From: Sinohyriopsis cumingii | Taxonomy: Eukaryota; Mollusca; Bivalvia; Unionida; Unionidae | Length of the DNA stretch: 64,000 nt | Direction: 5' to 3' | Assembly (NCBI GenBank): GCA_028554795.2 | Contig: JAPYKE020000537.1 | Coordinates: 186,001-250,000 of the forward strand | Shown here: piece by piece, positions 36,301 through 52,599 of the stretch | How positions within the stretch are numbered: the first letter of the stretch is position 1 | Layout: each line of letters opens with the position of its first letter | Program-made: the position numbers and the translations under genes | The notes under the pieces: model-generated | Databases searched by the model: none | What the model was told of the DNA's origin: nothing | What the model saw: only the letters and a program-made list of their open reading frames with translations

Positions 36301-36337
36301 AAGCAATACCGACTGTAAAACAATTGGAGATGAAGGC

Positions 36338-37881: not shown

Positions 37882-37979
37882 TATTATTATTCGTTGTCTT
37901 TAGTGTCTAATTTCAACAACCAGGTGGTTCCGGCTTCCAGTTAAAAATCCTCGATTTTTGACATCGCGGAGCTATACAA

Positions 37980-38423
37980 CTAGACCATCGTGGAGAATTC
38001 AACATCGGATACGAACAAATTATCAATCGATAACGAGATCAACCCGGATAATTTCGAGTACGCGTCGGATACTATTTGATGTTTTACTGTATACTCGTTG
38101 AGTTTTTTCTGAAAACACGATGATATCTTCCTAGTGATTGCGTTGGCGACTCCAGCAACTGTTGTCATCGCGGAGACAGCGATTGGAACAGCGATCGGGG
38201 CTATCGTGGTCACCGTGGATAAAATAACACCGGTACCGGCCACTATACCCGACACCGAGTACACGACCGCGTCGATGGCGGTTATTTTTCGGCGGTATTT
38301 TTTTATTTTTGCACGGTATTGTTCGGAAAGCGTTTTCAAGTTCGCGGAGAATTCTTTTGCGGTATCGAATCGATATTGATGTGACGTCGGTGATACCTCT
38401 GATTCAATTACCTTGGTGGTCAT
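37980..38423 (-). CDS. Small membrane protein of the virion block (147 aa)
   Basis: A charged N-terminal half with coiled-coil character (residues ~20-47, FSANLKTLSEQYRAKIKKYR) is followed by two adjacent hydrophobic segments at about 48-70 and 72-92. Then comes a basic linker and an amphipathic tail. This suits a virion membrane or membrane-interacting protein, but the family is not recognised. It lies 98 bp from the penton-like gene and 17 bp from the fibre-like gene on the same strand, so co-transcription is likely. The homologue at 54401-54864 keeps the same two hydrophobic segments, which argues for a real gene. Confidence 0.65.
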   Translation of the reverse strand: MTTKVIESEVSPTSHQYRFDTAKEFSANLKTLSEQYRAKIKKYRRKITAIDAVVYSVSGIVAGTGVILSTVTTIAPIAVPIAVSAMTTVAGVANAITRKISSCFQKKLNEYTVKHQIVSDAYSKLSGLISLSIDNLFVSDVEFSTMV

Positions 38424-38439
38424 TTTTATTTTAAAAGAG

Positions 38440-40080
38440 CTAGTGTTTTTTATTACTTAGATCCACTACAAATTCCGCATACCATGTGATGTTTGCCCTA
38501 AATAGACTGCTATCAACGGCTTTAATTATAAACCGTTCGATTGTATCCTTGTCAATGATTGTTGATATTGTATTGTTAAACCCGGATGAACTCGGCGATG
38601 ATATACTGAACTGCATCGCCGAAATCAATGTCAATCGATAAATGCCCTTAACAATTGCGGTGACATCTATTGTATTACGCGTAGGAGTCCAATCGAATGA
38701 TCCGTATTGAACCGTGTATACGCCACTGCCGATGATCCCATGAGGTGTTTTCATTTTTTCGAGTTGCTCTGTCATTCTAGGTAGTCTGTCCTTAATCGCT
38801 TCAACATCAGTTTTGATTGTTTTTATTTCCCCTCCATACGCGTCTACATTTTTTTTGTTCGCTTCAATATTAGTTTCGAGTTGCTCTGTTATTCTCGGTA
38901 GTCCGTCTTTAATCGCTTCAACATCAGTTTTGATTATTTCTATTCTCCGCAAATTCGCGTCTATATTATTCTTGTTCGTTGCAACATTAGTTTTGATTGT
39001 TTCTATTTCCCGTGTATTCTCGGTCATACTTTTTTTGTTCGCTGCAACATCAAGTTTGATTGTTCTTATTTCATATGTATGTACGTCTATACCTTTTTTG
39101 TTCGCTGCAACATCAGTTTTGATTAATCCTATTCCCCGCCAATACGCGTCTACATTTTTTTTGTTCGCTTCAATATCGGTTTTGATTGTTCCTATTTCCT
39201 GTGTATGCGCGTCTACATTTTTTTCGTTCGCTTCAATATCGGTTTTGATTGTTCCTATTTCCTGTGTATGCGCGTCCACACCCTTTTTGTTCGCTTCAAT
39301 ATCAGTTTTGATTGTTCCTATTTCCTGTGTATGCGTGTCCATATTATTTATGATCGTTGCAACATTAGCGCCGATTATTTCTATTTCCCGTTCATGCGCG
39401 TCTACACTCCTTTTGTTCGTTGCAACATCAGTTTTGATTGTTTCTATTTCCTGTCCATACGCAGTGATATCATTTATAGTTATTGTGATTTCATCCGGTT
39501 TGGCATTTTTTTTACCAAGGAATTTATCAAAGTTGTCATCGATCCTGTTAACATTTTTTCGTAACGAGGTAAATTGGCCCGACAGCGTCGTAAACTCCAA
39601 AATAGTATTTTTTATTGTTGCAAGATTCGGTTCGGTTACCGTCGGGGTTCCAAAAAAACTAGCGGTAGTGAGTTGTATATCGGTGACAGATTTTTTCACC
39701 TCGGTGACAGATTTTTTCACCCGCGCGTCGAATTCGATCATAGATATATTCAACGATGTAAGTCTGTCTCGAACGGATGTTATCTCATTCATCACCTCCG
39801 ATATATGTTTACCCGGTTTGAGTCGTCCGTCGCCGGTATACAACGCGATAGTGCCATTGGCGACATTAGGATGTCGTATTAAAACGTCATCCAGCGACAC
39901 ATTACTGGATTTCAATTTACCCTGGCGGTCTTGAAATACAACTATTTCACCTGGGTCAACACTTGTTAAATTCAACGTATCAGCGATTTCATCCTCGATT
40001 AGTTTTTTTATGTCATCGGTGGTAGGCGTTTCCGTGGGCTTTTTCAGCGCCGAAACCGGTCGTCCCCAAATATCAATCAT
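38440..40080 (-). CDS. Fibre-like protein with 21-residue coiled-coil shaft (546 aa)
   Basis: It has three parts. The N-terminal tail (1-~150) begins MIDIWGRPV and contains a VDPGEIVVFQDRQGKL segment. The shaft (~214-445) has about eleven repeats of exactly 21 residues, of the type EIGTIKTDIEANKKNVDAHTQ, i.e. three heptads. The C-terminal head (~450-546) is non-repetitive and aromatic/Thr/Ser-rich. Tail, coiled-coil shaft and head is the plan of trimeric receptor-binding spikes, and the gene lies between penton-like and protease genes. Fibre function is inference. One repeat is 18 residues, keeping most of the heptad register. A stop-riddled homologue at 53399-54404 keeps the tail start (VDIYGRS) and the head end. 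Confidence 0.7.
   Translation of the reverse strand: MIDIWGRPVSALKKPTETPTTDDIKKLIEDEIADTLNLTSVDPGEIVVFQDRQGKLKSSNVSLDDVLIRHPNVANGTIALYTGDGRLKPGKHISEVMNEITSVRDRLTSLNISMIEFDARVKKSVTEVKKSVTDIQLTTASFFGTPTVTEPNLATIKNTILEFTTLSGQFTSLRKNVNRIDDNFDKFLGKKNAKPDEITITINDITAYGQEIETIKTDVATNKRSVDAHEREIEIIGANVATIINNMDTHTQEIGTIKTDIEANKKGVDAHTQEIGTIKTDIEANEKNVDAHTQEIGTIKTDIEANKKNVDAYWRGIGLIKTDVAANKKGIDVHTYEIRTIKLDVAANKKSMTENTREIETIKTNVATNKNNIDANLRRIEIIKTDVEAIKDGLPRITEQLETNIEANKKNVDAYGGEIKTIKTDVEAIKDRLPRMTEQLEKMKTPHGIIGSGVYTVQYGSFDWTPTRNTIDVTAIVKGIYRLTLISAMQFSISSPSSSGFNNTISTIIDKDTIERFIIKAVDSSLFRANITWYAEFVVDLSNKKH
38760..39450. repeat. 63-bp in-frame tandem repeats coding the fibre shaft
   Basis: About eleven 63-bp units, each coding 21 residues of the coiled coil. 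Three central units (about 39160-39350) are nearly identical at DNA level, so recent unit gain is likely. The period also keeps a long antisense ORF open (38813-39934), which is a shadow. Confidence 0.88.
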
Positions 40081-40082
40081 TA

Positions 40083-40514
40083 TTATCTAATGTAATTGTC
40101 TCTAAATTTCCCACTAGTGTATTCGTTTACAACCACATGAGGTGGTTTCCGCGATGATGAAATCGCCGCGAGTACGTTCAATACCTCGCGGCCACATATC
40201 GGTGGGTCACTTAATTGCTGTGTTGGCAGCGTGGAATAAAAAACCCGGGCTGAACACGCCCGGGTTGAACACACCCGGATATACCGCATGAACTCTTTCG
40301 GCGGGGCTAACCCGTATGAATCAAAATAGACGATTGCACGCGGATCAATCGCGTATGCAACCCAATGAGTTCCCGCTCCGGAGGACCCATCGAGGTTAAT
40401 TATGCCTGTTTCAGTATTCCTTGGGGCCGCCGGTAATTGATCCCTCATAAAAACACCTCTGAAGTTTTTTATCGCTAACGCGTTTGCGGCGTCTATTAAA
40501 TCAAAATTAGACAT
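40083..40514 (-). CDS. Adenain-type cysteine protease
   Basis: Virion maturation protease of the adenovirus/polinton type (C5 family pattern). Visible are His in GAGTHWVAYAIDP, an acidic residue in IVYFDSYGLAPP, a Gln pair just upstream of the nucleophile (TLPTQQLSD) and Cys in PPICGREVLNVL. The order H-D-Q-C is that of adenain. The ORF is open back to 40580, but that extension overlaps the 158-aa gene. The decayed copy starts at the equivalent MSNVDLLDAA, so I choose the Met of MSNFDLIDAA (40514; 40523 is also possible). That gives about 143 aa, short for the family. It probably cleaves precursors of the small basic proteins next to it. The homologue at 53032-53385 has lost the His. Confidence 0.85.
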   Translation of the reverse strand: MSNFDLIDAANALAIKNFRGVFMRDQLPAAPRNTETGIINLDGSSGAGTHWVAYAIDPRAIVYFDSYGLAPPKEFMRYIRVCSTRACSARVFYSTLPTQQLSDPPICGREVLNVLAAISSSRKPPHVVVNEYTSGKFRDNYIR

Positions 40515-40534
40515 TGGAGTCATAGACTCTTGCG

Positions 40535-41011
40535 TTAATAAACGGTTCCCGGTAGTCTTAGACCCTTTCCCGAGTACCATGAATACGGGGTTCCCGGTAG
40601 TCTTAGACCCTTTCCGGCCACGGGTCGTTTTTTTTTGTAGCCTTTCCCGGTTGCCTTCTTTAATGCCATTCCCGCCGCGGTACCAACGGCTCCTAACGCC
40701 GCCGCCTTAGCCACTGCTGGGGCCGCCGCGGCAATCAACGCTGGAATCGCAGCTAACAGCGGAAATATCCCACCGGTCTTTTCCATGTTTTTAATTGCTG
40801 CGGCTGAAAAATCTATTTGAACACCCTTTTTATTCTTCATCGCATCATTGAAATGTTTTATTTGACGCGCCGTCGACGATATCTTATGATTACCACCCGC
40901 CATCTGCGACGGCTTCAGCGTTATTGTGGTTCCGCATTGTTTAGCCGACTTTGATCGTAATTTCCTGACTTGACCATCAGTCAACTCTACACTGACGACA
41001 CTATACGACAT
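40535..41011 (-). CDS. Small basic protein with Ala-rich hydrophobic segment (158 aa)
   Basis: The N-terminus (VSVELTDGQVRKLRSKSAKQ) is followed by a basic middle. A hydrophobic Ala/Ile/Pro-rich stretch lies at ~80-115 (IFPLLAAIPALIAAAAPAV). The tail is Lys/Gly-rich and ends in a duplicated GKGLRLPGT motif. Basic, Ala-rich proteins beside the capsid gene are typical of adenovirus-like minor core or membrane-lytic proteins, but I cannot assign a homologue. The C-terminal duplication is visible in DNA as a ~28-bp direct repeat at about 40546 and 40586. No counterpart remains in the decayed element, where capsid and protease remnants are directly joined. Confidence 0.6.
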   Translation of the reverse strand: MSYSVVSVELTDGQVRKLRSKSAKQCGTTITLKPSQMAGGNHKISSTARQIKHFNDAMKNKKGVQIDFSAAAIKNMEKTGGIFPLLAAIPALIAAAAPAVAKAAALGAVGTAAGMALKKATGKGYKKKRPVAGKGLRLPGTPYSWYSGKGLRLPGTVY

Positions 41012-41039
41012 TTTATTGTAAACGCGTTTATGCTTTCAA

Positions 41040-42482
41040 TTACATGTTTTCCACTGGCGCATCAACGATTCTCATTCGTCCACCAACACCTTCTAGCAGC
41101 ATTGATTTATCGCTGAGGATGACAGCAACCGCTCTGTAATTAACACCACCCGGGGCTATACGAGCTCGGAAGTGTATATCAACGACGGATTGTCTCGTTA
41201 AATCAAGATGTTCCAACGAAAAGTAATAAATCGGATACAGGTTTTTAAAATCAAGTTGTGATATTTGCAAACCAGTGTCGACGTTTTGATCACGGCCCAT
41301 ATATGACAGCAATCGATGATACACACGTGCGATATGGTTGTCGCCGTAATTAAGCTGTATATCCTCGGATGGTTCCTGTTGTCCGTTTATTCTCAGCGAA
41401 ACATCCCTGACTCCTAATTGATCAAATATCATATGGCTGTGTTCTTGACTGCCCAATCGTTCCCTATTCTGTAGCGCTATGAATATATGACGCGGGGCTG
41501 AAACACCCTGTTTTGATGCTAGGTGCCATGTAAACGTATCGGCGACGTTATCCTCTTTAGCATCAGTTGTTACCGCTAGCCAACTCAACAGCGATTTCCC
41601 TCCCTGTTCCATAAATGCTAACAATCGTGCTTCCGTGGTAACTGATGGAGTCAGCACCGGCATCCACAATGCCATTTTAGTTAAAACGACTTTACCGGCA
41701 GCGACGCCAGCAGCACGCCATATTGCATTGTTATCATCGCCCCTTCGCGTCAGCGCGATTGTATGCTTAGCCCCATAGATAACCTTCCTGACATTTCTGC
41801 AGAATCCAAATATGTGATGGAGTGGAATCGCGCATGAAAACTTTCGGCGTGGTCCTTGCAACATTCCTACTCGTGTTGCGAACCCTAGATTAAAATTATC
41901 GTTAGTACTTTTTATGATATTGAACTCAGCGTCCGGTCTTACCCTGCGGTCTGGATTGGCTGCTTCAGCTTGTGGGTTAGTTGCGGTATCTCTTTCCACT
42001 AGCACGTTAACGTACTGAAGATGGTCAGCGTTATCGGTGGAGTCCTTTGCGAACATTATAGATGGGCCCGCCGATCTTGTATAATCATCCGAGTATCTCG
42101 CCAACCCAATTATCGTCGTTGCAACATCAACCTCGCGTTCTATTGATTCAATTTCTCGCCCGTCAATAAGATATCTGGCGCTCTCAAATAACGCCATGAT
42201 ACCGTTGTTGACGAAGCCAACTCGAACACGATGGTCATCTGCGTATGGTGCATTATCGGCGGCATTTGTCACGAGTTCTCCCTCAATTTCGATAAACGCT
42301 TCACACGGCAGAAAGTATTTACTGGTATCTTGGACTTGAAGTTCAATTCGCGATCGTAGGTCAGGTTGCGCTGCATAATAAGAATAATATTGATAATCAC
42401 GGACAGAATCATCCCTGCGCACTGGGGCATCCATATCAAACGCGGGATCAGCGGTACGCGCAAACATTTTATTATTTATCAT
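41040..42482 (-). CDS. Major capsid protein candidate, double jelly-roll type (480 aa)
   Basis: This is the longest non-repetitive protein of the virion block. The N-terminus ADPAFDMDAPVRRDDSVRDY leads into a strand-rich region with IELQVQDTSKYFLPCEAFIE. The middle has FSCAIPLHHIFGFCRNVRKV followed by the I-Y-G-A-K-H-T-I-A-L-T-R-R run (~222-254). That PL-HIFGF and YG-L-R block is characteristic of double-jelly-roll capsids of polinton-like and adintovirus-like elements. The C-terminal half has NLYPIYYFSLEHLDLTRQSV. Length and the neighbouring protease, ATPase and penton-like protein all agree. The copy in the older element (52640-53030) keeps only the first ~130 residues. Confidence 0.75.
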   Translation of the reverse strand: MINNKMFARTADPAFDMDAPVRRDDSVRDYQYYSYYAAQPDLRSRIELQVQDTSKYFLPCEAFIEIEGELVTNAADNAPYADDHRVRVGFVNNGIMALFESARYLIDGREIESIEREVDVATTIIGLARYSDDYTRSAGPSIMFAKDSTDNADHLQYVNVLVERDTATNPQAEAANPDRRVRPDAEFNIIKSTNDNFNLGFATRVGMLQGPRRKFSCAIPLHHIFGFCRNVRKVIYGAKHTIALTRRGDDNNAIWRAAGVAAGKVVLTKMALWMPVLTPSVTTEARLLAFMEQGGKSLLSWLAVTTDAKEDNVADTFTWHLASKQGVSAPRHIFIALQNRERLGSQEHSHMIFDQLGVRDVSLRINGQQEPSEDIQLNYGDNHIARVYHRLLSYMGRDQNVDTGLQISQLDFKNLYPIYYFSLEHLDLTRQSVVDIHFRARIAPGGVNYRAVAVILSDKSMLLEGVGGRMRIVDAPVENM

Positions 42483-42492
42483 GTTGGTGTTT

Positions 42493-43014
42493 TCAATTGC
42501 GATTTTTTCGTCGTAAATTCTTTGAATTTAAACCACTCCCCGCTATCGCGTTCATGAGCGCGTTGGTTGCCGCATCGGCTGATGGCGAAGTCGCCAACGA
42601 CGGAGTCGTCGCCGCTAACGACTCTAATTTTTCTTCCACGGCGTTATTTATTACTTTACTGACATTTGCAGGCATCACTGTCGTTGATGGCATTACCGGT
42701 GGTTTCTGTTTTCTTTTTGAAAATCTCTTGGATTTCACCAATGACATTAGTTTGTCCCGCGCGGCTGAAAGCGTCTTTCCGGCAACATCTCCAATGGCAC
42801 TAATACCCTTATCACGAATAACATCAATAGCCTTCATCCCTAATTGTTTGGCTAACGGCGCTACTTTTGGAGCCATTCTTGTAAATAAACCCGCAATGGT
42901 GCTACCGAGACCATCTCCATAGTACGCGCGGTAAACAGGCAATCGCGAGTTTACCACGTAGACGAGTACTGGTTTATCATGGTTGTAGTGTATGATCATC
43001 CTTATTAAAAACAC
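42493..43014 (-). CDS. Small virion-block protein (173 aa), insertion target in the older copy
   Basis: A short N-terminus with LVYVVNSRLPVYRAYYG is followed by a Gly-rich YYGDGLGSTIAGLF segment. Then come an amphipathic Lys/Ala helix region (~45-95) and a basic patch RFSKRKQKP. The Ser/Ala tail ends in RRKNRN. It is basic and probably DNA- or membrane-associated (core or pVI-like role is speculation). The start could be Met6 (42999), because the decayed copy resembles it only from there. It lies 10 bp upstream of the capsid gene and is probably co-transcribed. In the older element this same gene is interrupted twice, by the 1,320-bp transposon and by this element. Confidence 0.6.
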   Translation of the reverse strand: MFLIRMIIHYNHDKPVLVYVVNSRLPVYRAYYGDGLGSTIAGLFTRMAPKVAPLAKQLGMKAIDVIRDKGISAIGDVAGKTLSAARDKLMSLVKSKRFSKRKQKPPVMPSTTVMPANVSKVINNAVEEKLESLAATTPSLATSPSADAATNALMNAIAGSGLNSKNLRRKNRN

Positions 43015-43376
43015 CAGTTTTCCAATTAGTGATTGTGATCACCAGTGATTGATTACCCCCCCCCACCGCCGTGTGGAAAACCGGAATAAATTTTATCAAA
43101 ATTTCCTTGGGTTTTTGCCCTCGATAAAAATCTGGTTTTTTTCTGGTTTTTTCTTCATTTTTAGTCATTTTTGGTCGTTTTTTGTTGCCTATAGTCGTTT
43201 TTTTCTCGATTTTTCAGAAAAACATCGATTTTCTTTAAATGATTTCCTTGGGTTTCTGCCCTCAAAAAATGGCCAAAAACAGTCAAAAAACGACCAAAAA
43301 TGACTAAAAACAGTCAAAAAACGGTTAAAAATTAACAAAAACGATAATTTTATAATTTTATAATTTTATAATTTTT
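43015..43376. other. AT-rich intergenic tract with inverted and direct repeats
   Basis: A perfect 27-bp inverted repeat (TTTTTAGTCATTTTTGGTCG... at 43158-43184 and its complement at 43284-43310) encloses 99 bases. A direct repeat TTCCTTGGGTTTxTGCCCTC occurs near 43103 and 43242. The flanking genes both read leftwards, so this is upstream of the 173-aa/capsid run and downstream of the 313-aa gene. A promoter/terminator or structural role is possible. No ORF here is credible. Confidence 0.75.
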
Positions 43377-44318
43377 TTAATCATCCACGAGTTCGTCTAT
43401 GAGCGTTCGATATGCATTAATGTCCATAATACCGCCTGCAAATAACCGCTTGCAAATATCAGCGGCCTCATTGATTATTTCCGTAGAGTTATTTCCGGCT
43501 CGTTTTCCTCCGATTAGTACTTCCAGCCGTGATATATCACTGAGAACACTATTAGGGCAGGTAACGCCGTAGGATTCTTTACCAACAGGGTATCCTTTTC
43601 CTTTTTTTGGTGTTATACTCTTAACTTCCTTGTGGAATGTGTCGTAATCGGATTTACTACGATGTGGTAATGCATCTTTATGTTTACTTGCTAAATACAC
43701 TATTCTTGCCCAGTCCTTTAACGACTTTATATTTTTCTCGTAACCGCTATTGATATGCTTCTTATCTCGTATGCTCTTAGCAAAATTGTTGGCAGCAAAA
43801 TTAATTAATTCTTCCCTGTTGCTGAAGCCTCTAATTTGATCTATTGTGCTCTTTTTGAGTACAATACGGGGTATATTCCCTTCTTTTTCTTCCGGTATTT
43901 CTTCTTCTGGTGTTTCTTCGGGTATTTCTTCTTCTGGTTCTTTCGCAGTAGCGCCTAGTTCTTCCTCGTCGGCCATTGTAACATAGGGTTCTTGTGGTTC
44001 GGTTATAGCGAGTGGTGGTGGCCTCCGTGTTGTAGCAGCCGCTATTTTTGCAGGGAGTGTTTCTAAAGACCTTTTTGTTTGTTTTGTCTCTGCCGCTATC
44101 TTTTCAAGCGCACCAAGAACGGGTACAGTTACCGCCGTAACATCCTTAGTCGCTTTAGTTACCGGGGCAAATAACTGTTCACTTCCAACAGCAAAATCAG
44201 TTTGCATTTGTTGTCGCGTTTGAAGTTTCTCTCTCACTCTATCTCGTAACGGTATAAACTTTATAAGCGCTGCTAGCCGCTCTCTGGCTAGCCGAGTAGT
44301 AAGTGATTCACCTACCAT
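43377..44318 (-). CDS. Uncharacterised structural-block protein with acidic linker (313 aa)
   Basis: The N-terminal helix-rich part has LTTRLARERLAALIKFIPLR. It is followed by Ala/Thr-rich sequence and a Pro-rich TTRRPPPLAI. An acidic linker of repeated EEEIPEE motifs (~120-150) comes next. The Lys-rich C-terminal domain ends RLEVLIGGKRAGNNSTEIIN and CKRLFAGGIMDINAYRTLI. This C-terminal motif also survives in the decayed copy at 33726-34809, so the protein is conserved between elements. I do not recognise a function. A scaffold or tail role is conceivable from the acidic/basic layout and from its place behind the capsid genes. Promoter sequence would lie in 44319-44496. Confidence 0.6.
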   Translation of the reverse strand: MVGESLTTRLARERLAALIKFIPLRDRVREKLQTRQQMQTDFAVGSEQLFAPVTKATKDVTAVTVPVLGALEKIAAETKQTKRSLETLPAKIAAATTRRPPPLAITEPQEPYVTMADEEELGATAKEPEEEIPEETPEEEIPEEKEGNIPRIVLKKSTIDQIRGFSNREELINFAANNFAKSIRDKKHINSGYEKNIKSLKDWARIVYLASKHKDALPHRSKSDYDTFHKEVKSITPKKGKGYPVGKESYGVTCPNSVLSDISRLEVLIGGKRAGNNSTEIINEAADICKRLFAGGIMDINAYRTLIDELVDD

Positions 44319-44496
44319 TATTGTAAATTGATCCGCAATTTCAAATAAAATTTTCCGCCGGGTCTTTCCATGGTGGCAGAAATATATCGTGTCATTGTGT
44401 ACATCACATATATATAATGTTACATTTGTATGCCGACTTCGTCACGCGACGTGGGCACAGGTAACTTCAAGCTGAGGCTCCCCACAGGGGTTTCGT

Positions 44497-44829
44497 CTAT
44501 GATCCTCCTAATGTTTTTAATCTTACTAGAGATCTCGCGGCGTTTTTCATAAAGCTGCCCGAGTTTTTTCGTATTGTTTCAACGGCAGTGAATAACCCAA
44601 TGAATACGCTTACGTCATTGCCATACAGGTTCTCATTAATTGTATGTTGTAATCGTTTTATAAAAGAATACTCGCGGGCTAGCGTAAAACGCCCTCGCTT
44701 CGATTGTTCGTTTATAGCCTCATAATCGGATAGCATTTCCTCGCTGTTGAGCCTATCAGATAATACAATTCCTTGATTTTTTAATTTTGAAATCTCAGTT
44801 AATATATTATTGATGTCTTGGGAATCCAT
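44497..44829 (-). CDS. Uncharacterised helical protein (110 aa)
   Basis: Predominantly helical with coiled-coil character at the N-terminus (INNILTEISKLKNQGIVLSD). A basic middle has RGRFTLAREYSFIKRLQ and the end is Lys/Arg-rich. No family is recognised. A degraded minus-strand sequence at about 56970-57379, in the equivalent position of the older element, has a similar R-(F/Y)-TL-E-F-K-Q pattern and may be its homologue. The start at 44829 is the first Met after an AT-rich leader. Confidence 0.5.
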   Translation of the reverse strand: MDSQDINNILTEISKLKNQGIVLSDRLNSEEMLSDYEAINEQSKRGRFTLAREYSFIKRLQHTINENLYGNDVSVFIGLFTAVETIRKNSGSFMKNAARSLVRLKTLGGS

Positions 44830-44943
44830 ATTCTTATAAACATCTTATTTCTAATATCAAAAATTTTAATAAAATTTAAGTTAATTTAATAAAATTTAAG
44901 TTTAATAAAATTATTGGGGGTCATTTTTGACCCCGTTTTTTGT

Positions 44944-45144
44944 ATGGACAGTACAATGCCGTAAATCTCCACTCGAGTGTTGTGGCAGATTGCAGGCATA
45001 CATGGACAGTACAATGCCGTAAATCTCCACTCGAGTGTTGTGGCAGATTGCAGGCATACATGAACAGTACAATGCCGTAAATCTCCACTCGAGTGTTGTG
45101 GCAGATTGCAGGCATATACATATACTTAATTATGGACAGTACAA
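44944..45144. repeat. 58-bp iterons with palindromic core
   Basis: Three near-perfect units start at 44944, 45002 and 45060 (ATGGACAGTACAATGCCGTAAATCTCC...). A partial fourth unit (ATGGACAGTACAA) is at 45132. Each full unit contains the 10-bp palindrome CACTCGAGTG. They lie in the only large non-coding gap of the element (44830-45587). An initiator or regulatory binding array is a reasonable inference. The 82-aa ORF over them is an artefact. Confidence 0.9.
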
Positions 45145-45174
45145 ACAATGACGGGGGCGTGGTTTGCACTCAAC

Positions 45175-45274
45175 CGAACCAAAACGCAACCCATGAAAAT
45201 CAATCATGGTTGCGTAGTTGGAAAAAACCAACCGCGCACACTATGAATGATAGTGTGGGCTGCGTTTTGGTTCG
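45175..45274. other. Multi-branched inverted repeat, origin-like structure
   Basis: An outer perfect 14-bp stem CGAACCAAAACGCA (45175-45188) pairs with TGCGTTTTGGTTCG (45261-45274). Between them lie three hairpins: ACCATGA-type arms at 45189-45210 (one bulge); GTTGG-AAAAAA-CCAAC at 45217-45232, extendable by TGCG/CGCA; and CACACTAT-GAATG-ATAGTGTG at 45237-45257. The fold resembles branched terminal or origin hairpins of small DNA replicons. It sits 30 bp from the iterons. Function is inference. Confidence 0.75.
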
Positions 45275-45587
45275 TTTTGAACTTCAACGAAGGGGGCTTT
45301 ATCCCCTCCCCCCAATTATATAGAAAAAAAAAAAACATCTGACCGTTTCCCGCCAGGCAATTGCCCGCTGCGAGGCGCGAACCCGTAAATTGTTGACTCG
45401 AGTTTCATAGTCAAACATGTTTGCATTGGACTACAGACCGCACCTAACAAATAACGAGTTTTTAAAAAATATAAGCACGTAATGCGTTCCAGGTGAACGC
45501 GCATAGGTAACTTATTTACATTGAAACAGACGACTATTTGCAAATCACGTGACAGCATAACTCTATCATGGTGACTTCGTCATACCC
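45275..45587. other. Non-coding remainder of the central gap
   Basis: It contains an A-run at 45325 and no credible gene. The 80-codon minus ORF at 45316-45558 has no recognisable domain and no counterpart in the older element. Confidence 0.5.
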
Positions 45588-46094
45588 TCACGAGTTATCC
45601 CCCTTCAGATATGAAAATCGAATTCTATGTCCGTTTTTACTTGAGAAAGCTGTTTGATATACTCGTTCTGCAACAAATCCTACTGAGGCGCTACAAATGT
45701 CAAAATATTTTCCTGCCTCATTCATGGACTGAAATATTTTTTCCTCGTGCGTTGACGTATCAAATGATTTGACGCCCCCTGCTGCTTTTGAGTACTTACC
45801 AGTCTGGCCTTTTTTAATATTTTCACTCTGAGAGATAGCTTGCAGATTACACAGTCTGTTATTTTGATAATTAGAATCAATGTGATCAATAACGAGACTA
45901 TCTTTGATCAATCCGTGGAAACATTCATAGATGATTCTGTGACAGAGATATTTTTTCCCTCCAGCAGTAAACATTAAATACCCGTGATTGTTTTTCCATC
46001 CAACCGGCTTCTTCAGTCTGCGGTTTCTAACAATACCGTCGCGAGATGCCTCGTAATTGACGAGCAGGGGATGCGGCTGAAATTCTTGGTCCAT
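45588..46094 (-). CDS. HNH endonuclease with NUMOD-like ends (168 aa)
   Basis: The N-terminus is of NUMOD4 style (YEASRDGIVRNRRLKKPVGW ... GYLMF). It is followed by the HNH core: KKYLCHRIIYECFHG, LVIDHIDSNYQNNRLCNLQA and SQSENIKK, with the H-N-N-N residues typical of phage homing nucleases (~50-100). The C-terminus has a NUMOD1-like helix (FQSMNEAGKYFDICSASV). Such proteins cut DNA at a specific site and often move themselves. Here the gene is also present at the same place in the older element (58950-59320), so it is a long-standing resident rather than a recent intruder. It is co-oriented with the Cys-rich gene 13 bp upstream. Confidence 0.85.
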   Translation of the reverse strand: MDQEFQPHPLLVNYEASRDGIVRNRRLKKPVGWKNNHGYLMFTAGGKKYLCHRIIYECFHGLIKDSLVIDHIDSNYQNNRLCNLQAISQSENIKKGQTGKYSKAAGGVKSFDTSTHEEKIFQSMNEAGKYFDICSASVGFVAERVYQTAFSSKNGHRIRFSYLKGDNS

Positions 46095-46107
46095 TTATAT
46101 AATAATA

Positions 46108-46449
46108 CTACTTGTCTAATTTATTATTTGGTTTAATTATAAATCTTTCAACATAGTCTTGGGGGGTTTTGATGACGGAGTCAGCGGTGGGGTCAATGAC
46201 GGCGTTTTTAATTCGTTTGTCATAATAGCGTTTTAGTTCCCTGTATCGCTTTCCGCCACAATTAATACACAACTGCGATTTTCCTCTTACACCAACGTGG
46301 CAAACCAAGCACGGGAGGGGGCCAAGAGAACCATTACGAACGCTTTGTAAATGATACCCGCAGAATTCACCTCTACATGATTTATTGCACGGGGTTATCA
46401 ACCCAATCATCAACCATTTGCATTTATTCATTATACTATATTCTTTCAT
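46108..46449 (-). CDS. Cys-rich zinc-binding protein (113 aa)
   Basis: Cys/His pairs are spaced as in zinc fingers: CKW, then PCNKSCRGEFCGYH, then PCLVCHVGV, then LCINCGGKRYR. A basic helical tail follows. At least two zinc sites can be drawn. A nucleic-acid-binding or regulatory role is likely, though no precise family is claimed. It starts 21 bp from the first replication ORF, which reads the other way, so 46450-46470 must contain a bidirectional promoter. Met7 (46431) is an alternative start. A mutated copy sits in the same position in the older element. Confidence 0.65.
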   Translation of the reverse strand: MKEYSIMNKCKWLMIGLITPCNKSCRGEFCGYHLQSVRNGSLGPLPCLVCHVGVRGKSQLCINCGGKRYRELKRYYDKRIKNAVIDPTADSVIKTPQDYVERFIIKPNNKLDK

Positions 46450-46470
46450 TTAAATACTTGTTTTAATTAT
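46450..46470. promoter_or_regulatory. 21-bp divergent intergenic spacer
   Basis: TAAATACTTGTTTTAATTA-type AT-rich spacer between the Cys-rich gene (-) and replication ORF 1 (+). Both start codons face away from it. The core promoter elements must lie here or within the coding ends. Inference from layout only. Confidence 0.45.
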
Positions 46471-47544
46471 ATGGATGAGTTCGAGAGATTAGCAGTAATT
46501 AAGCCCTGGAAAAATATTAAATTCAATCTCGATAGAGTCCTCAAGGACACACCAAAAGCGTTAATAAACGATAGAACCCTGTTGAATAAAATACGCGATT
46601 GTATTAATGAATTCAAGCGTGATGGTGCATCTCATAGTTGGTCAACATTTCGAATTGATGGTGTTGTTGATGCTACCATGAACGACAACCGCGCAGCAAT
46701 GATAATATCACAACTTGACGGTAAAAAGTATTTCTTCAGAGTAAAATTTATTGTCCGGGTGGAATCAGGTGATTGGATCATACGTGATAAATTTGAACCG
46801 GTTCTCAGCGACAAGAAAACAGTCATTGTCAGCCGCGACTCCAAGCCGGGGTTGTTAACCGGAATTGACAGACCATACTATGAACGAGCGTATCCTGAAA
46901 CAGCAGTTGTTTATGGAATATACCCGTTAAATAAGAAACCTGATATCGGAAAACTGAAACCGATGAAACAGTCAACGGGGATAAATTGTGTAAAAGAACG
47001 AATAATAGAGCATTTTACAAATGCATGTCGAGGAAACAAATTGACTGATTTACGACGTAGCAAAATCAACCAGTGGGAACTAACCGTAAAAGAGCGTGGA
47101 GCGACCATCAGCGACATAGCGAGATTAGAAACATCGCTGAGATTTCCAATAACCGTTACAACGATAACCGGTGAAGTATTATACGAATCGAAGTATAAAT
47201 CAAATGGGGCCCCAATCAAAATTATTGATCATAACGAACACGCATGGACGCCCGCGATCACAATATTTCCACGGGATAGAACAGTAAAGTATATCCCCGA
47301 AGAATTTTTAGGAGAACAATTCTCCAAGGACGGTTTTCTCGCGGAGAGGAAACTATTTGATGCTATTGCCTACTTGTGTAAAAACGACCCTGTATCAGTG
47401 TGGTTACTTCGCAGCGCTGAAAACGATGCGGATACCTTTGATCAGTTTGTAAGACCAAACGGCGAATTATATCGCACTGAAGCATTTCACAACAGGATGA
47501 AAAAACCGCCATGGAATTTGAAGAGCATGATGAACAACTGCTAA
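46471..47544 (+). CDS. Replication protein ORF 1 (357 aa), N-terminal part of the polymerase-helicase
   Basis: Recognisable blocks are HSWSTFRIDGVVDATMNDNR, SKPGLLTGIDRPYYERAYPE, CVKERIIEHFTNACRGNKL and IKIIDHNEHAWTP (~247-259). The C-terminal region has NDPVSVWLL and QFVRPNGELYR. The order is conserved in the decayed copy at 59698-60710, and the last block also in the fragment near 33245. In all three copies polymerase motifs follow directly. I read it as the N-terminal domain of the polymerase, with no clear 3'-5' exonuclease triad visible. It overlaps ORF 2 by 34 bp in the -1 frame, next to an A6 run (47500-47505). The two may be one protein joined by frameshift or separated by an indel. 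Confidence 0.65.
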   Translation: MDEFERLAVIKPWKNIKFNLDRVLKDTPKALINDRTLLNKIRDCINEFKRDGASHSWSTFRIDGVVDATMNDNRAAMIISQLDGKKYFFRVKFIVRVESGDWIIRDKFEPVLSDKKTVIVSRDSKPGLLTGIDRPYYERAYPETAVVYGIYPLNKKPDIGKLKPMKQSTGINCVKERIIEHFTNACRGNKLTDLRRSKINQWELTVKERGATISDIARLETSLRFPITVTTITGEVLYESKYKSNGAPIKIIDHNEHAWTPAITIFPRDRTVKYIPEEFLGEQFSKDGFLAERKLFDAIAYLCKNDPVSVWLLRSAENDADTFDQFVRPNGELYRTEAFHNRMKKPPWNLKSMMNNC

Positions 47545-49949
47545 CAAATTGTTTTACGATTCCATCGGTTGTAGCTCATGTTGCAGCAAGGAAAAATGCG
47601 TGGAGACCAACGCGCAAGGAATTTCTGCCGGATGTACAATCCAGTTGTTTGGAATACTATCACGGTGGATTATGGAACACTGAATACAACCGCGACGCTA
47701 TGATCTCGGTTGATATGGTTGCCTGTTATCCAGCGAGTTTTCTCGGGTATGGATCCGCCGCTGAGTATTTCAAACGATTTGGACACCCCAGACATGAAAT
47801 GACTCGTGTTGCTATTAATGGACCACTGCCTAATTTTGATTTAACCGGATTCGCTCGCATAGTATCATTTGAATTCGCGGCAGGACTCCATCGCTGTTGT
47901 TATATTTGGATCGGTAGACACATGTCTGAAAAGAAGTGGCTGCCAATAGCGCTGCTACGGTATATGATTGATTGTAAAATGCTAATTTCGTTGATTGTCA
48001 GTGACGCGATCATATCATACCGGGCACAGACTGAAGTCTGGTTACCAGAACCGGAGCGTCTAGATAGCATAATTGACGAGTCCAGAAAAAACATTGATGC
48101 CGACGAGGAATATATCATCGAATGGTCCAGGAGGATATTTAACCAACGAAACCGCGAGGCAAAAGATCTCGGTAGAAGAATAATTGGTAAGTTCACACAA
48201 GGTGGAAAAAACCACGACTACAAACGATATTGCTCACGGCTGATTATAGATGACGCAGAATATGATTTCGTAATCAAGGACGCAGTGGCAAAAAATAGAT
48301 ACGTGAACTGCAAAACAGCTTTCTTGTCCAATGGAACGAGGTTGGGTACAGTTGTTACCTACAGCGATGGAGACAGCCCGGCGTATCCACATTTGAGGGC
48401 GTCTATGCTGGGTTATGCCGCTATCAATTTATTCTCGATGATAAATAGATTTCCCGATACCGCGGTTAGAGTAGCCGTTGATTCGTTTTATGTTGACGTA
48501 GCGTATAAGGAAAACGTAGCCGAGTTTACTAGTCCGGACGAGAGTTGGGGTACATGGAGAATTAAAAATGAAATACGACGCGATTATTCCCCGTCAGCGG
48601 ATGTCACCGTTGAGAACGACTACTTACGCGGTGATAAATTGTCAGAATGGTCTGATGCACCATCGTGTTCTGATCCAATTTGTAGACACAAGACGGTTTA
48701 TTTAAGCGGCTGTGGCGGGTCAGGGAAGACGACTCGGGCAATTGAATTATTTCGAACGCGGGCAAGTATAATCGTGCTTACACCGACCCATAGACTAGCG
48801 CGAGAGATAAAACAACGAAATGTTGACGCCGTTACTTATCACAGCTTTTTTCGATACAGCGGCGGTGAGTGGACTCCTGATCGAATGGGTGAAAAATTTA
48901 TTCCTGAGGTTATCATCTGGGATGAGATATGTACTGTTTCGTTAGATACTTTACAAATGTTTCTTGAGTGGCTGCTGCGCGCGAATACAGCGGTGATCAT
49001 GTGTGGCGACCATGGCCAACCACCACCATTTGTCGGCGAGGGTCCACATGATTGGTTAAGGGGTTTTGTGGACTATTATGAAGAAACCGATACTGATTAC
49101 CGAGCACTTGATGAACAACTGCGCGAGGTTAAGAAATTAATCAGATTACAGCCGGATAGAATTCAATGTGAAATAATCCGCGAGGTGATTCCGGAAACGC
49201 CGTTAAATGAATTCTGGGAAACATGGAAACCAAACGATTTGATTGTAGCGAGTAGAAAGATAGTCAGAGACACACTTCAGCGGAGGTTGTTTACGTTGCA
49301 TAAGGAAAAGTTTCCAACGCGCCCAGTGCCGTTATGTTATAGACCCGCGGACACACGGCGGCAGAACATTGAAGTTGAAATCCCGGGCCGGACAGAAAAA
49401 CAAATTCTCGTGCTGAATGATATTGTGCTCGTTGATATCAGCGTCGTCGGGGACGCGCTACGTGCTGATAAATCCCCGTGGACGCTAGGATACGCAACAA
49501 CAATACATTCCTCGCAGGGACTAACCATCACGGACACAATTGTTTGGATGGTTGATAATCGCATCGAATGGTCGAATCTAGTCTATCTTGCAGTGTCCCG
49601 AGTACGGAGAATAAATCAGCTTCGAAGAATTGTTATTGACGAAGCCACCGACGAAGCCGGCGACAAAGTCACCATCGATGCAAGCGTCATTGATAGAAAA
49701 CTCTCGGGTTACCGCCAACAGGATAAAAAAAAACAGCGGCGTTTTGATATTGATGCCGAATTAATAATTGCGTTACGACAACAACAGAATAATCACTGCG
49801 CGAGTTGTAATTGTATAATGAGTTGGCGTTATTCGGATAAAGACACTCGCCAATTTACCGTGGATAGGATCGATAACAGTCTCGGTCATGTCAAAAACAA
49901 TGTGAGGTTGACCTGTCTTGAGTGTAATAGACGCAACGGCGCTAGTTAA
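47511..49949 (+). CDS. Family-B polymerase palm + SF1 helicase + HNH (812 aa)
   Basis: Three modules. Palm (~60-330): motif A SVDMVACYPAS (Asp68), motif B AKDLGRRIIGKF (Lys218, but Asn and Tyr of the usual K-N-YG are replaced), motif C VAVDS (Asp324 kept, first Asp of DTD replaced by Ala). Helicase (~395-705): Walker A GCGGSGKTT (400-408), YHSFF, Walker B VIIWDE, CGDHGQPPPF, motif V IHSSQGLT, motif VI YLAVSRV, a Pif1/RecD-like SF1B set. HNH (~762-808): CASC, FTVDRIDN, H793, LTCLECNRR. Both catalytic carboxylates of the palm remain, so activity is plausible. Replication of the element is the inferred role. Its end meets the integrase gene convergently. Confidence 0.8.
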   Translation: MEFEEHDEQLLTNCFTIPSVVAHVAARKNAWRPTRKEFLPDVQSSCLEYYHGGLWNTEYNRDAMISVDMVACYPASFLGYGSAAEYFKRFGHPRHEMTRVAINGPLPNFDLTGFARIVSFEFAAGLHRCCYIWIGRHMSEKKWLPIALLRYMIDCKMLISLIVSDAIISYRAQTEVWLPEPERLDSIIDESRKNIDADEEYIIEWSRRIFNQRNREAKDLGRRIIGKFTQGGKNHDYKRYCSRLIIDDAEYDFVIKDAVAKNRYVNCKTAFLSNGTRLGTVVTYSDGDSPAYPHLRASMLGYAAINLFSMINRFPDTAVRVAVDSFYVDVAYKENVAEFTSPDESWGTWRIKNEIRRDYSPSADVTVENDYLRGDKLSEWSDAPSCSDPICRHKTVYLSGCGGSGKTTRAIELFRTRASIIVLTPTHRLAREIKQRNVDAVTYHSFFRYSGGEWTPDRMGEKFIPEVIIWDEICTVSLDTLQMFLEWLLRANTAVIMCGDHGQPPPFVGEGPHDWLRGFVDYYEETDTDYRALDEQLREVKKLIRLQPDRIQCEIIREVIPETPLNEFWETWKPNDLIVASRKIVRDTLQRRLFTLHKEKFPTRPVPLCYRPADTRRQNIEVEIPGRTEKQILVLNDIVLVDISVVGDALRADKSPWTLGYATTIHSSQGLTITDTIVWMVDNRIEWSNLVYLAVSRVRRINQLRRIVIDEATDEAGDKVTIDASVIDRKLSGYRQQDKKKQRRFDIDAELIIALRQQQNNHCASCNCIMSWRYSDKDTRQFTVDRIDNSLGHVKNNVRLTCLECNRRNGAS

Positions 49950-50066
49950 GACCACGCGGGGGTAATTGAGTATCGTCAGGTATCACTTGTAGTTGCTCGC
50001 GTGTAAATCCGCGCTGAGGAGCAGTTGAATCCAGTCTGTAGATCGGTGGTCTACCAGTTGATCGTG

Positions 50067-50885
50067 TTATCGTTGATATGTTATGTGTGGTAACACTCCA
50101 AATAGGATCAGTAGCCCTTTTTTACCGCCTTCAAGCTCTTCTGGTTCATATAGATATCTAACAGTGACATCGCCAAGAATCGGCTTGGAAACACTATCTA
50201 TTTTTGATTTTCCGAGTATATACTCGTATTTAATCGCGTCGCTGGGCTTCATGTTGATTGCTCGGGTAATCTCGTTATTTAACGCTGCAATTACGCCTGG
50301 CAACCTTTTAACCCATTCACGAGATCGTTTTTCTTGGATGAATTCCTTCGCGTATTGATATCCAAATAACCGTTCAGCAAGAGTCCGATTGAATCGTTCA
50401 ACAATTGCCTGATCACGATGTAGCGCAGTATGACCTCGTCGTATCGCGACGCTATGATGTTTCAGCGTTGATAAAACAGCGCCGCGAAATTCACTACCGG
50501 GATCAACTTGTAATAGATTTGGCCAGCGCAGAGGACCTCTTTGATAAATTCTTTCAAACGCAGCGGCAACTTCAGTTGCTGACTTTGTTTTTAACGGCTC
50601 CGCTTGTTTGTATCGACTCGCAACATCAACTACGGTTAGCGCGTATTTGTAACCATTGTCATGCGGCAAAAATAGTATATCAGCCTGATGAACTTCATTA
50701 GGTACGCTGACATCAAAGCGCGAGAAGTTGATTTGTTTAGGCGGTGGTAGATAAATTTGCCATATATCCTGTTTGGATAACCAATTAGCCGCAGTGGCCT
50801 TTGTTACCTTTGCAGCGCTTGCAAGCTTACCAATTGCGGCCTTCCCCTTCCAGTATCCTCTCGGAGAATAATAGATGGACTCCAT
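50067..50885 (-). CDS. rve-type (DDE) integrase, C-terminus frameshifted
   Basis: Retroviral/Maverick-type integrase. The DDE residues are Asp69 (VHQADILF), Asp128 (LLQVDPGSEF) and Glu163 (AIVERFNRTL). The N-terminal helix-turn-helix-like region contains TKATAANWLSKQDIW. The open frame ends at 272 aa. However, the -1 frame downstream of an A6 run (near 50125) stays open to a stop at 49942-49944 and codes a tail. The older element's copy (63340-63558) has that tail in one frame. The gene therefore probably extended ~41 codons further, meeting the replication ORF with a few bases of overlap. The break is either decay, an assembly indel or recoding. 7 bp separate it from the upstream PLA2 gene. 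Confidence 0.88.
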   Translation of the reverse strand: MESIYYSPRGYWKGKAAIGKLASAAKVTKATAANWLSKQDIWQIYLPPPKQINFSRFDVSVPNEVHQADILFLPHDNGYKYALTVVDVASRYKQAEPLKTKSATEVAAAFERIYQRGPLRWPNLLQVDPGSEFRGAVLSTLKHHSVAIRRGHTALHRDQAIVERFNRTLAERLFGYQYAKEFIQEKRSREWVKRLPGVIAALNNEITRAINMKPSDAIKYEYILGKSKIDSVSKPILGDVTVRYLYEPEELEGGKKGLLILFGVLPHITYQR

Positions 50886-50892
50886 GTTGTTA

Positions 50893-51228
50893 TTAATTAC
50901 CAGCGCCCATCATTAATTTACCTTTCATAGCCGATTTTACCAACCATGAAGCCAATTTTTCTTTGACGGATTTATCAGGAATAGCATTTAACGCGTGAAT
51001 TAATTTTACATCCGCGATATGACGCTGTTGCAGATCGCTACTTTTGTAAGCAACATCATGAGCATGACACGCCTTATCGATAGCGTTTATTGGATACTCA
51101 CCGGGTTTGGGCTGATTTTGATCATCGAGTCTAATATCTAATCGTGTTCCGGGGCCACAGTAGTTATATCCTGGGAGGTGTTTTTCTCCTGGATACTTTG
51201 CCCACGGTGTTCCGGGGAGTTTTGCCAA
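50893..51228 (-). CDS. Phospholipase A2-like domain (parvovirus VP1 type)
   Basis: HLPGYNYCGPGTRLDIRLDD supplies a YCGPG calcium-loop-like segment and INAIDKACHAHDVAY the D-x-x-C-x-x-H-D-x-x-Y active-site helix. This is the pattern of phospholipase A2 domains found in parvoviral capsid proteins, where they breach endosomal membranes during entry. It occurs in several virus-like animal elements. The reading frame has no ATG before this domain (first codon of the listed range is TTG). It is open upstream to an A8 run at about 51258, beyond which the zinc-ribbon ORF continues in the other frame. The two are probably one gene. A helical Lys-rich tail ends GAGN, also seen in the older copy at the right edge. 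Confidence 0.75.
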   Translation of the reverse strand: MAKLPGTPWAKYPGEKHLPGYNYCGPGTRLDIRLDDQNQPKPGEYPINAIDKACHAHDVAYKSSDLQQRHIADVKLIHALNAIPDKSVKEKLASWLVKSAMKGKLMMGAGN

Positions 51229-51416
51229 TTTGGCTGCAATATCACCTCCTCGCTTTTTTTTAAAACATCCCCGGGTTTAATAGAAATAAATCTAAATTTC
51301 TTTGTACCGCATTGTGCACACTTACCAGTAAGGGCCGATCTGTTATTTCTTGTTGTAGCGGTTGTCATATCATTTGTGCCAGTACGTACTCTACACTTCA
51401 CACAATATAGATCCAT
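51138..51416 (-). CDS. Zinc ribbon, probable N-terminal half of the PLA2 protein
   Basis: CVKC near the N-terminus and GKCAQCGTKKFRF about 25 residues later form a four-Cys zinc ribbon (like the small DUF5679 family). The ORF continues to 92 codons, but past the A8 run (51253-51260) the residues look random. The PLA2 frame takes over there with a basic Gly-rich linker. I therefore regard only about 51255-51416 as meaningful coding sequence. The start Met at 51416 is 5 bp from the divergent ATPase start. Confidence 0.65.
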   Translation of the reverse strand: MDLYCVKCRVRTGTNDMTTATTRNNRSALTGKCAQCGTKKFRFISIKPGDVLKKSEEVILQPNWQNSPEHRGQSIQEKNTSQDITTVAPEHD

Positions 51417-51421
51417 AATTT

Positions 51422-52096
51422 ATGTATAGAGATATGAATATAATTGATTTTTCGGCGACTAAAACAAGAGAACCAGTTAAGCATGTTGCAGCGTTACCAA
51501 ACTCGATCCGGATGATTATCATCGGACCATCTGGATCCGGCAAGACGCAATTGTTACTCAATTTAATAATGAGATGGATGAAGTGGGATAAGTTGTATTT
51601 GGTTGCTCCTAGCGTGGATGATCAACGATGCTACGAGGTGTTGAAAGATTTCAACGAGAATGCATCAGCGATCGCTAAAAAAAATGTTATTGAGTTTATT
51701 ACAGATATCAATGATGCACCAGGCATTGATGATATTGATGGCGACGTTAACAATCTAGTCGTGTACGATGATGTTATGTTAGACAATCAAAAAAACCCAG
51801 CTAGGATATTTTCCAGAGGCAGGCATAAAAACACCGACGTGATATATGTCACTCAACGATACACTCAGATTCCAAAAGTAATCAGAGACAACTGTAATAT
51901 TCTTGCTGTATTTAACGGTGTTGATACACACACGCTACGAAATATCTGGCAAACTTGGTGTGGCGGTGACATGGACTTTAATGGTTTTCGAAACTTTTTT
52001 AGTCATGCTCAGTCGACCCCACATGGATTTGTAACGATAAATTTACATGATCCTCGGACACGATATCGTATCGGACTTGACCAAATATTCGGTTAG
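51422..52096 (+). CDS. A32/FtsK-like genome-packaging ATPase (224 aa)
   Basis: Walker A GPSGSGKT at residues 35-42, Walker B NLVVYDDV at 111-118 and a YVTQRY segment at 142-147 match viral packaging ATPases of the A32 group used by polintons, adintoviruses and large DNA viruses. It would pump the element's DNA into capsids. Length is normal for the group. Start is Met1 at 51422, or Met5 at 51434. It is the only virion-related gene on the plus strand and the last gene before the right terminal repeat, with a 13-bp gap. It is divergent from the zinc-ribbon gene with only 5 bp between starts. No copy of it is inside the window for the older element. Confidence 0.85.
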   Translation: MYRDMNIIDFSATKTREPVKHVAALPNSIRMIIIGPSGSGKTQLLLNLIMRWMKWDKLYLVAPSVDDQRCYEVLKDFNENASAIAKKNVIEFITDINDAPGIDDIDGDVNNLVVYDDVMLDNQKNPARIFSRGRHKNTDVIYVTQRYTQIPKVIRDNCNILAVFNGVDTHTLRNIWQTWCGGDMDFNGFRNFFSHAQSTPHGFVTINLHDPRTRYRIGLDQIFG

Positions 52097-52109
52097 TTGT
52101 AACTAATTT

Positions 52110-52367
52110 TCATTGTAAATAACTTCTTAGCAGCAGAGGGGGAATGACATCGACGCGGTCGTCGATGTGCTTACCGGACGCTGACGACGCTGGGGATCGA
52201 CGCGCAGAAGGTATTAATTAAACCAAATGACGTCACCATCGTGTAAGATGGACCGACGTCGTTTTTTTTTTACCAGCGCTGACTACACCGGATCCGCTGA
52301 GTGCAGAAAGTAATAATTAAGCAAAATAACGATTGGACAAAATGTCGGATTCGCCCCCTCTGCTGCT
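52110..52367. repeat. Right terminal inverted repeat
   Basis: Reverse complement of 36338-36597 with few differences (for example a longer T/A run near 52262 and a missing CG in the inner 17-mer copy). It carries the same nested 17-mer boundaries, hairpin and TGACGTCA (52228-52235). The outer end CTGCTGCT is followed by the AAGGC duplication at 52368. Confidence 0.95.
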
Positions 52368-52599
52368 AAGGCTATTGATGCTGTTTGTGATAAAGGTATT
52401 AGTGCTGTTGGTATTGTTACCGGTAAAGCATTTTGATCGATCAAAGAAAGAATAGCTCGATCAATACGAAGAAATCAAAAACCAGTACAATTTCCCCGTA
52501 CTAAAGTTATGCCTGCAAAAATACTAAAATAATAAATCAAGCTGCAAATGAAAAACCAGCAGAATTGGCTGTTAATGAAGTTGTTTCTACAAAGTAACT
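52368..52599 (+). pseudogene. 3' part of decayed 173-aa homologue
   Basis: Starting exactly at the target duplication, the sequence reads KAID followed by DKGISAVG, matching KAIDVIRDKGISAIG of the intact gene. A stop follows GKAF, then RNQKPVQFP and, in another frame, INQAANEK, matching the end. With 34842-34980 and 36308-36337 it makes up the whole older gene. Confidence 0.88.

Follow-up and report, generated by a model that had tools for sequence, protein, structure and literature searches.

A variant Tlr1-like palm-helicase-HNH protein in a polinton-like element of the bivalve Sinohyriopsis cumingii

Polinton-like viruses (PLVs) and transpovirons encode Tlr1-like helicases. In these proteins, a terminal protein (TP) domain is followed by a vOTU domain, a polymerase palm and a superfamily 1 (SF1) helicase (S1H), the exonuclease is lost and a GIY-YIG or HNH nuclease lies at the C-terminus (PMC11071308, a bioRxiv preprint, in the parts covered here). 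The same parts predict that the polymerase is active and state that active family-B DNA polymerases (PolBs) without the first Asp of motif C exist; they also cite a 2016 Virus Evolution paper (Krupovic et al. 2016) whose title calls the polymerase inactivated. Here, we analyse a related gene in a stretch of 64,000 nucleotides from Sinohyriopsis cumingii (assembly GCA_028554795.2, contig JAPYKE020000537.1, positions 186,001 to 250,000), hereafter the window, where it belongs to an integrated polinton-like element at 36338-52367.

A reading based on the sequence alone had proposed that a palm, an SF1B helicase and an HNH nuclease are joined in one protein of this element, and our analysis supports this fusion. 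The sequence-only reading had furthermore called the protein a distinct replication module and a poorly described system. Neither description is supported, as TP-vOTU-palm-S1H proteins that end in a GIY-YIG or HNH nuclease are already described and known as the Tlr1-like helicases of PLVs and transpovirons (PMC11071308). The finding is real and its motif-level reading correct, and the protein belongs, as a variant, to a replicase type already described; it is no unknown system. We consider it probable that the element makes its own DNA replicase from this gene, a variant of the kind in which a protein-primed PolB (pPolB) is fused to an S1H. The replicase fusion was previously known from elements of single-celled organisms; here it is found in animals and fungi, in many copies that are apparently under selection. 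The value of the locus lies in its hosts, in a fixed change of motif B and in a selection test of palm and HNH across the copies of one genome, for which the literature covered, in part as extracts, offered no earlier example.

Domain architecture and conservation of the replicase

The open reading frame (ORF) at 47511-49949 (+) comprises 812 residues and had been taken for the whole protein. The open frame is real, and Asp68, the altered motif B, A-V-D-S, the helicase and the C-terminal HNH were all confirmed at their positions. However, the gene extends further upstream: the ORF at 46471-47544 (+, 357 residues), in another frame, encodes its N-terminal third. P0002 (1168 residues), P0003 (1176 residues) and other homologues span both parts with a single ORF. 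P0002 is the closest homologue (79% identity), and its first third corresponds to ORF 46471-47544, which is collinear with its residues 1 to ~345. Because complete homologues form one protein over both ORFs, the window copy appears to be frame-broken or misread by the assembly, with the family intact.

The protein is ordered as N-terminal alpha/beta domain, OTU-like domain, exonuclease remnant, protein-primed-type palm, SF1B helicase and HNH. The frame break falls within the exonuclease remnant, so that the first part ends with its start and the second part begins with the remainder. The N-terminal domain, in the position of a TP, has a mixed alpha/beta secondary structure in models of relatives. 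It is followed, upstream of the palm, by a vOTU-type domain (46915-47253, +, borders approximate) with Cys173 and His257 of the first ORF at the presumed catalytic positions. No column of the exonuclease remnant has one acidic residue at 90% (best value 0.89 of 96, where P0002 and the window both have Asn); pooling Asp and Glu lifts a single column, of 50 rows, to 0.90, and there P0002 has Phe. We conclude that the exonuclease is lost and a structural remnant is kept. The palm (47646-48635, +, borders approximate) was delimited by conservation and by comparing relatives with phi29 polymerase using Foldseek and VIA-align. Downstream lie the SF1B (Pif1/RecD2/Dda-like) helicase (48672-49646, +), whose Walker A begins at residue 400 of the 812-residue ORF, and the zinc-type HNH nuclease (49773-49946, +; phrog_1035, 4.2e-11) with CxxC pairs at residues 763 and 802.

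In the window palm, motif A contains Asp68 (47712-47714, +) within DMVACYPAS, motif B reads K218-D-L-G-R222-R-I-I225-G-K227 (48162-48191, +) and motif C reads A322-V-D324-S (Asp324 at 48480-48482, +). Motif C usually reads A-T-D-S in the family; a Val as in the window is rare (1/103 at that position), and the closest relative has Ile. We estimated conservation from an alignment of 127 family sequences after removal of the rows P0121 (phi29) and P0129. The motif A Asp is kept in 98/101 sequences, the motif A Tyr in 95/103 and the motif C Asp in 101/103. Models of relatives match phi29 polymerase, with a superposition that starts at phi29 residue 52-54; the non-palm fold that the earlier reading had named as its refutation was not found. 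The palm resembles a protein-primed PolB in derived form, accompanied by an OTU-like domain. Given this fold and a family as large as 119 proteins, we reject the possibility that the motifs are chance matches.

Of the 63 relatives that extend to helicase motif VI, 57 have the HNH, and the other six seem to end early or to be partial. All eleven test positions are kept in 32 of the 35 sequences that span them, these 32 being 990-1367 residues long. Furthermore, OTU, palm, helicase and HNH show correlated pairwise distances (Mantel r 0.75-0.91; 999 permutations, the largest of which gave at most 0.522), with the HNH distances tracking those of palm and helicase at r 0.75-0.76. The replicase domains are therefore inherited as one unit. 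At the junction of helicase and HNH, a homopolymer differs by one base among copies within the genome, and the HNH lies in the other frame in 8 of 19 measured copies (L060-L079); this change of frame may reflect decay, assembly error or slippage.

Genomic copies, selection and rival readings

We searched the window's own genome (2.905 Gb, 1138 contigs) for further copies. Residues 1-812 were found at no fewer than 56 scored places, namely the window and 55 others at 97-98% (56 of 34,734 candidates scored), and the capsid gene of the element at at least 89 places at 96-100%, window included (89 of 35,292 candidates scored). Of the 55 scored non-window copies, 51 lie in open frames of 1185-1189 codons, compared to 822 codons for the window copy. 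Among 27 copies ranked by replicase score, the ratio of non-synonymous to synonymous polymorphism (pN/pS) is 0.11, and between the window copy and these 27 it is 0.17. Ranking by replicase score favours conserved proteins and thereby lowers pN/pS. We therefore used a second set of 20 copies that were chosen by their capsid gene, taking every fourth of the 89 capsid rows from row 2 to row 78.

The replicase is at the expected place in all 20 capsid-chosen copies. For these, each aligned tblastn piece was read in its own frame without joining, which excludes stretches too changed to align; in this reading, there are four in-frame stops, in four copies. The pN/pS is 0.40 for the N-terminal domain (15 copies), 0.07 for OTU, 0.27 for the exonuclease remnant, 0.22 for the palm, 0.23 for the helicase and 0.13 for the HNH. 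Every replicase domain is thus under purifying selection. The piecewise ratios supersede those of a joined reading, in which 5 of 13 copies had out-of-frame tails that distorted the values, most of all for the HNH (0.46). We reject decay of the whole lineage in view of the long open frames in 51/55 copies together with the selection in the capsid-chosen copies. In five of the 20 capsid-chosen copies (L063, L071-L074), the matching frame starts only near residues 134-146, upstream of OTU.

The equality of constraint between palm and helicase is not exact across copy sets. Among the 27 score-ranked copies, palm pN/pS is 0.13 and that of the helicase 0.09, whereas the seven in-frame full-length copies among them give 0.07 for the palm, 0.10 for the helicase and 0.07 for the HNH.

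Several observations weigh against a working replicase with an active palm. The position of the first motif C Asp is Ala in 95/105 sequences and Asp in 0/105. In motif B, the Asn position holds Cys in 83, Arg in 18 and Asn in none of 104 sequences, and the Tyr position holds Ile in 100/104 and Tyr in 0/104. The sequence-only reading had regarded this loss, common to all three copies in the window, as a trait of the lineage. With neither residue found in 104 sequences, it is a fixed trait over a far wider set than these three. In the superposition, the full model covers phi29 residues 52-499 without a matched thumb (the range of the other model reaches 575), and a K-x-Y motif was not seen by eye. 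A profile comparison with eight phage pPolBs gives weak matches in the right motif register (E 0.006-0.03); under another column rule, the pPolB scores of 19.5 and 19.6 are not significant, as 100 column shuffles for each reached 24.4 and 24.2 at most and 17.0 and 16.7 on average. Of the 27 Pfam families matched by 41 relatives, the 25 listed include no polymerase model. Among the copies, only 8 of the 20 capsid-chosen ones have one stop-free frame over nearly the whole length, the other 12 being interrupted, and the HNH is out of the helicase frame in the 8 of 19 copies mentioned above. Lastly, between the window copy and the 27 others, the palm ratio is 0.26, double the 0.13 of the helicase. 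A profile search of the PDB returned SF1 helicases and weak PacI (HNH) and Cas9 rows, and no polymerase.

If the gene is the element's replicase, the N-terminal domain would act as the primer at the inverted repeats and may be released from the remaining protein by the OTU protease. The palm would then extend DNA by two-metal catalysis through the Asp residues of motifs A and C, with the 5'-3' helicase running on the displaced strand ahead of it. The helicase could thereby replace the strand opening and the help with fidelity that exonuclease and thumb provide in phi29-type enzymes, and the HNH would have a fixed role in replication or end processing, nicking or cutting DNA. The copied element would then be packaged, or the rve integrase would insert it with a 5-bp duplication.

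A first alternative is that the HNH is a homing endonuclease or an intein-like passenger without a role in replication, as proposed in the parts of PMC11071308 covered here. Its C-terminal position and the out-of-frame copies are consistent with this, as is a free-standing HNH_3 nuclease with a weak NUMOD1-like tail that adjoins the gene (45588-46094). We nevertheless regard a passenger as rather unlikely, since an HNH sits at the same place in fungal, molluscan and further relatives, its distances track those of palm and helicase, and it is under constraint in the capsid-chosen copies.

The same near-constant presence, co-inheritance and constraint of the HNH (0.13, and 0.07 in the seven in-frame copies) would also suit a second alternative, in which an HNH nick supplies the 3'-OH and a nickase-helicase-polymerase copies the element without protein priming, in a rolling-circle-like or strand-displacement mode. 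That the domain in the TP position is the least constrained part (0.40) points the same way. However, the inverted-repeat ends and the protein-primed-type palm suit protein priming, no nick site is known and the HNH lies in a frame other than that of the helicase in 8 of 19 measured copies, which makes nick priming unlikely in our view.

It is quite improbable that the palm is catalytically dead, a scaffold binding DNA or protein for helicase and nuclease while host polymerases copy the element: the loss of the motif B Asn and Tyr and of the first motif C Asp, an exonuclease remnant without a fixed carboxylate, the thumb unmatched in the full model and the doubled palm ratio of the window copy all fit such a scaffold, but the two presumed metal-binding Asp residues (98/101 and 101/103) and the motif A Tyr (95/103) are kept, the covered parts of PMC11071308 note active PolBs without the first Asp, and in the capsid-chosen copies a palm as constrained as the helicase speaks against a dead one, which is expected to be less constrained. 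The selection data from within one genome are thus directly relevant to two questions, namely whether the palm still works and whether the nuclease has a function or is only carried along.

Going beyond the replicase reading, we tentatively suggest, at somewhat less than even confidence, that the pPolB-S1H branch of animals and fungi has a polymerase that is active with a rewired motif B, in which Cys or Arg replaces Asn and Ile replaces Tyr, and that its HNH is an obligatory strand-processing part. Protease, polymerase, helicase and nuclease would then act in one polypeptide, and this may have driven a recent multiplication of the element, to at least 89 capsid-gene copies at 96-100% in a 2.9-Gb genome.

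Relatives, hosts and the integrated element

A protein search with the window replicase found 119 homologues at E<=0.001. The nearest relative with a named host is from the freshwater mussel Sinanodonta (60% identity). Named mollusc hosts are Sinanodonta and Elysia, and named hosts in Glomeromycotina are Diversispora, Gigaspora, Racocetra, Cetraspora, Acaulospora, Ambispora and Rhizophagus; in a tree of 90 rows, the six fungal sequences form one group. The cnidarians Actinia and Desmophyllum yielded only fragments, found via the N-terminal part, and the full fusion is unsupported there. Some rows are labelled as the clam symbiont Candidatus Thiodiazotropha and are probably host DNA in those bins. 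A scan of bacterial and archaeal genomes gave one match, on a 3.2-kb contig in an archaeal metagenome-assembled genome, which is likely eukaryotic contamination. No relative was found in IMG/VR in scans with the full alignment, the capsid, the ATPase and the divergent alignment. A search with OTU and exonuclease reached no canonical OTU-PolB, and none of the 120 rows shown of 132 carried a polymerase Pfam label. A search with a 14-row alignment returned 31 rows, 30 of which belong to the replicase family and one (E 0.0037) is a helicase-like protein. The open-licence literature covered, in part as extracts, does not name animals or fungi as hosts of the pPolB-S1H fusion, and an earlier report elsewhere is possible. 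As the fusion in these hosts has no Pfam polymerase match in the families and relatives given above, such elements are easily missed there.

The element itself is complete. It is bounded by terminal inverted repeats (TIRs) of 258-260 bp (36338-36597, +, and 52110-52367, -; four mismatches and two gaps between them), and the 5-bp direct repeat AAGGC flanks it as a target-site duplication (TSD; 36333-36337 and 52368-52372). The TIR has at least 40 matches in the genome, both window ends included (40 of 1,591 candidates scored). We checked the TSD in 10 of the 88 non-window capsid-listed copies (L040-L059). In four, at least one end was not detected at the expected place; the six with both ends located have a 5-bp TSD in 6/6 and a 6-bp TSD in 0/6. 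The rve integrases typically give 6-bp TSDs and PLVs 5-6 bp (PMC12220804, in the parts covered).

The gene set is that of canonical polintons, including the TIRs: a double jelly-roll capsid protein (41040-42482, -; Pfam PF21738, 3.7e-17), an A32-type packaging ATPase (51422-52096, +; Pox_A32, 5.8e-12), a retrovirus-type rve integrase (50067-50885, -; 6.3e-09) and an adenovirus-type cysteine protease that matches weakly (40083-40580, -; Peptidase_C5, 0.011, under the curated cut-off). A small DUF5679 protein (51138-51416, -; 9.4e-12) lies beside the ATPase. The HNH_3 nuclease adjoining the replicase gene is on the minus strand (1.1e-11) and is a typical homing endonuclease. A protein at 38440-40080 (-) with eight to nine 63-bp repeats and coiled-coil-type Pfam matches is possibly a fibre, and three near-identical 58-bp tandem repeats (44944-45117) lie within the gap that separates the capsid block from the replication block.

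To the right of the element, 52368-52426 matches the element's own ORF 42493-42999 at 81%. Because the sequence past the right end is homologous to this ORF, the element is nested within a related decayed element whose homologous ORF it interrupted. This outer element takes in 52368 to ~63300 and sequence upstream of 36337. A decayed second replicase copy, detected by tblastn with frame changes and stops (60702-63322, +), probably belongs to it. A decayed third copy, of which tblastn detects only the palm part, lies at 32416-33205 (-).

Comparison with known systems

The phi29 DNA polymerase (PDB 2ex3 and others) differs from the window replicase in its canonical motifs B and C and in lacking a helicase. 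It has an exonuclease and a thumb. Likewise, the canonical polinton trait of a pPolB with exonuclease and without helicase is absent from the window replicase. The following comparisons rest on the parts of each publication that were covered. The OTU-PolBs of adintoviruses and polintons (PMC11071296) share an OTU-like domain before PolB, an rve integrase and adenovirus-like virion proteins with the element. They differ in that the polymerase is recognisable by sequence, and a fusion to helicase or HNH is unmentioned in those parts. The name HelPol does not refer to a helicase-polymerase, as it is mythological (PMC11071296); the mark of the HelPol replicase is its sequence similarity to cellular PolBc/Pol delta. 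In cryptophyte PLVs (PMC12220804), large SF1 helicase proteins are similarly fused to homing-type nucleases (GIY-YIG or HNH); the HNH is N-terminal there, and a palm is unmentioned in those parts. The PLV helicase SF1-pPolB of Oxyrrhis marina (PMC12721341) also joins an SF1 helicase and a pPolB in one protein. However, its helicase comes first, N-terminal of a complete pPolB with full exonuclease, whereas in the window protein the palm precedes the helicase. Furthermore, that PLV has a tyrosine recombinase, and no vOTU or TP was found in the parts covered.

The closest match is the Tlr1-like helicase (PMC11071308). The order of TP-position domain, vOTU, palm, S1H and C-terminal GIY-YIG or HNH is the same, the exonuclease is lost and the first motif C Asp absent in both, and Tlr1 likewise has an rve integrase. 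The window protein has the defining features: a protein-primed-type palm with the Asp of motifs A and C, an SF1 helicase C-terminal of it, a lost exonuclease and a vOTU with Cys and His upstream of the palm; in addition, it has a C-terminal HNH, as GIY-YIG or HNH is found in some members. TPR1 and TPR2 subdomains are a further feature of this kind. It differs in motif B, whose conservation is a stated property outside the definition: PMC11071308 calls this motif conserved, whereas, compared by description, Asn and Tyr are missing in 104/104 sequences of the window family. The hosts differ as well, with PLVs, Tetrahymena and transpovirons there and molluscs, Glomeromycotina and cnidarian fragments here. 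We thus conclude that the window protein is of the Tlr1-like (pPolB-S1H) kind, in a variant form.

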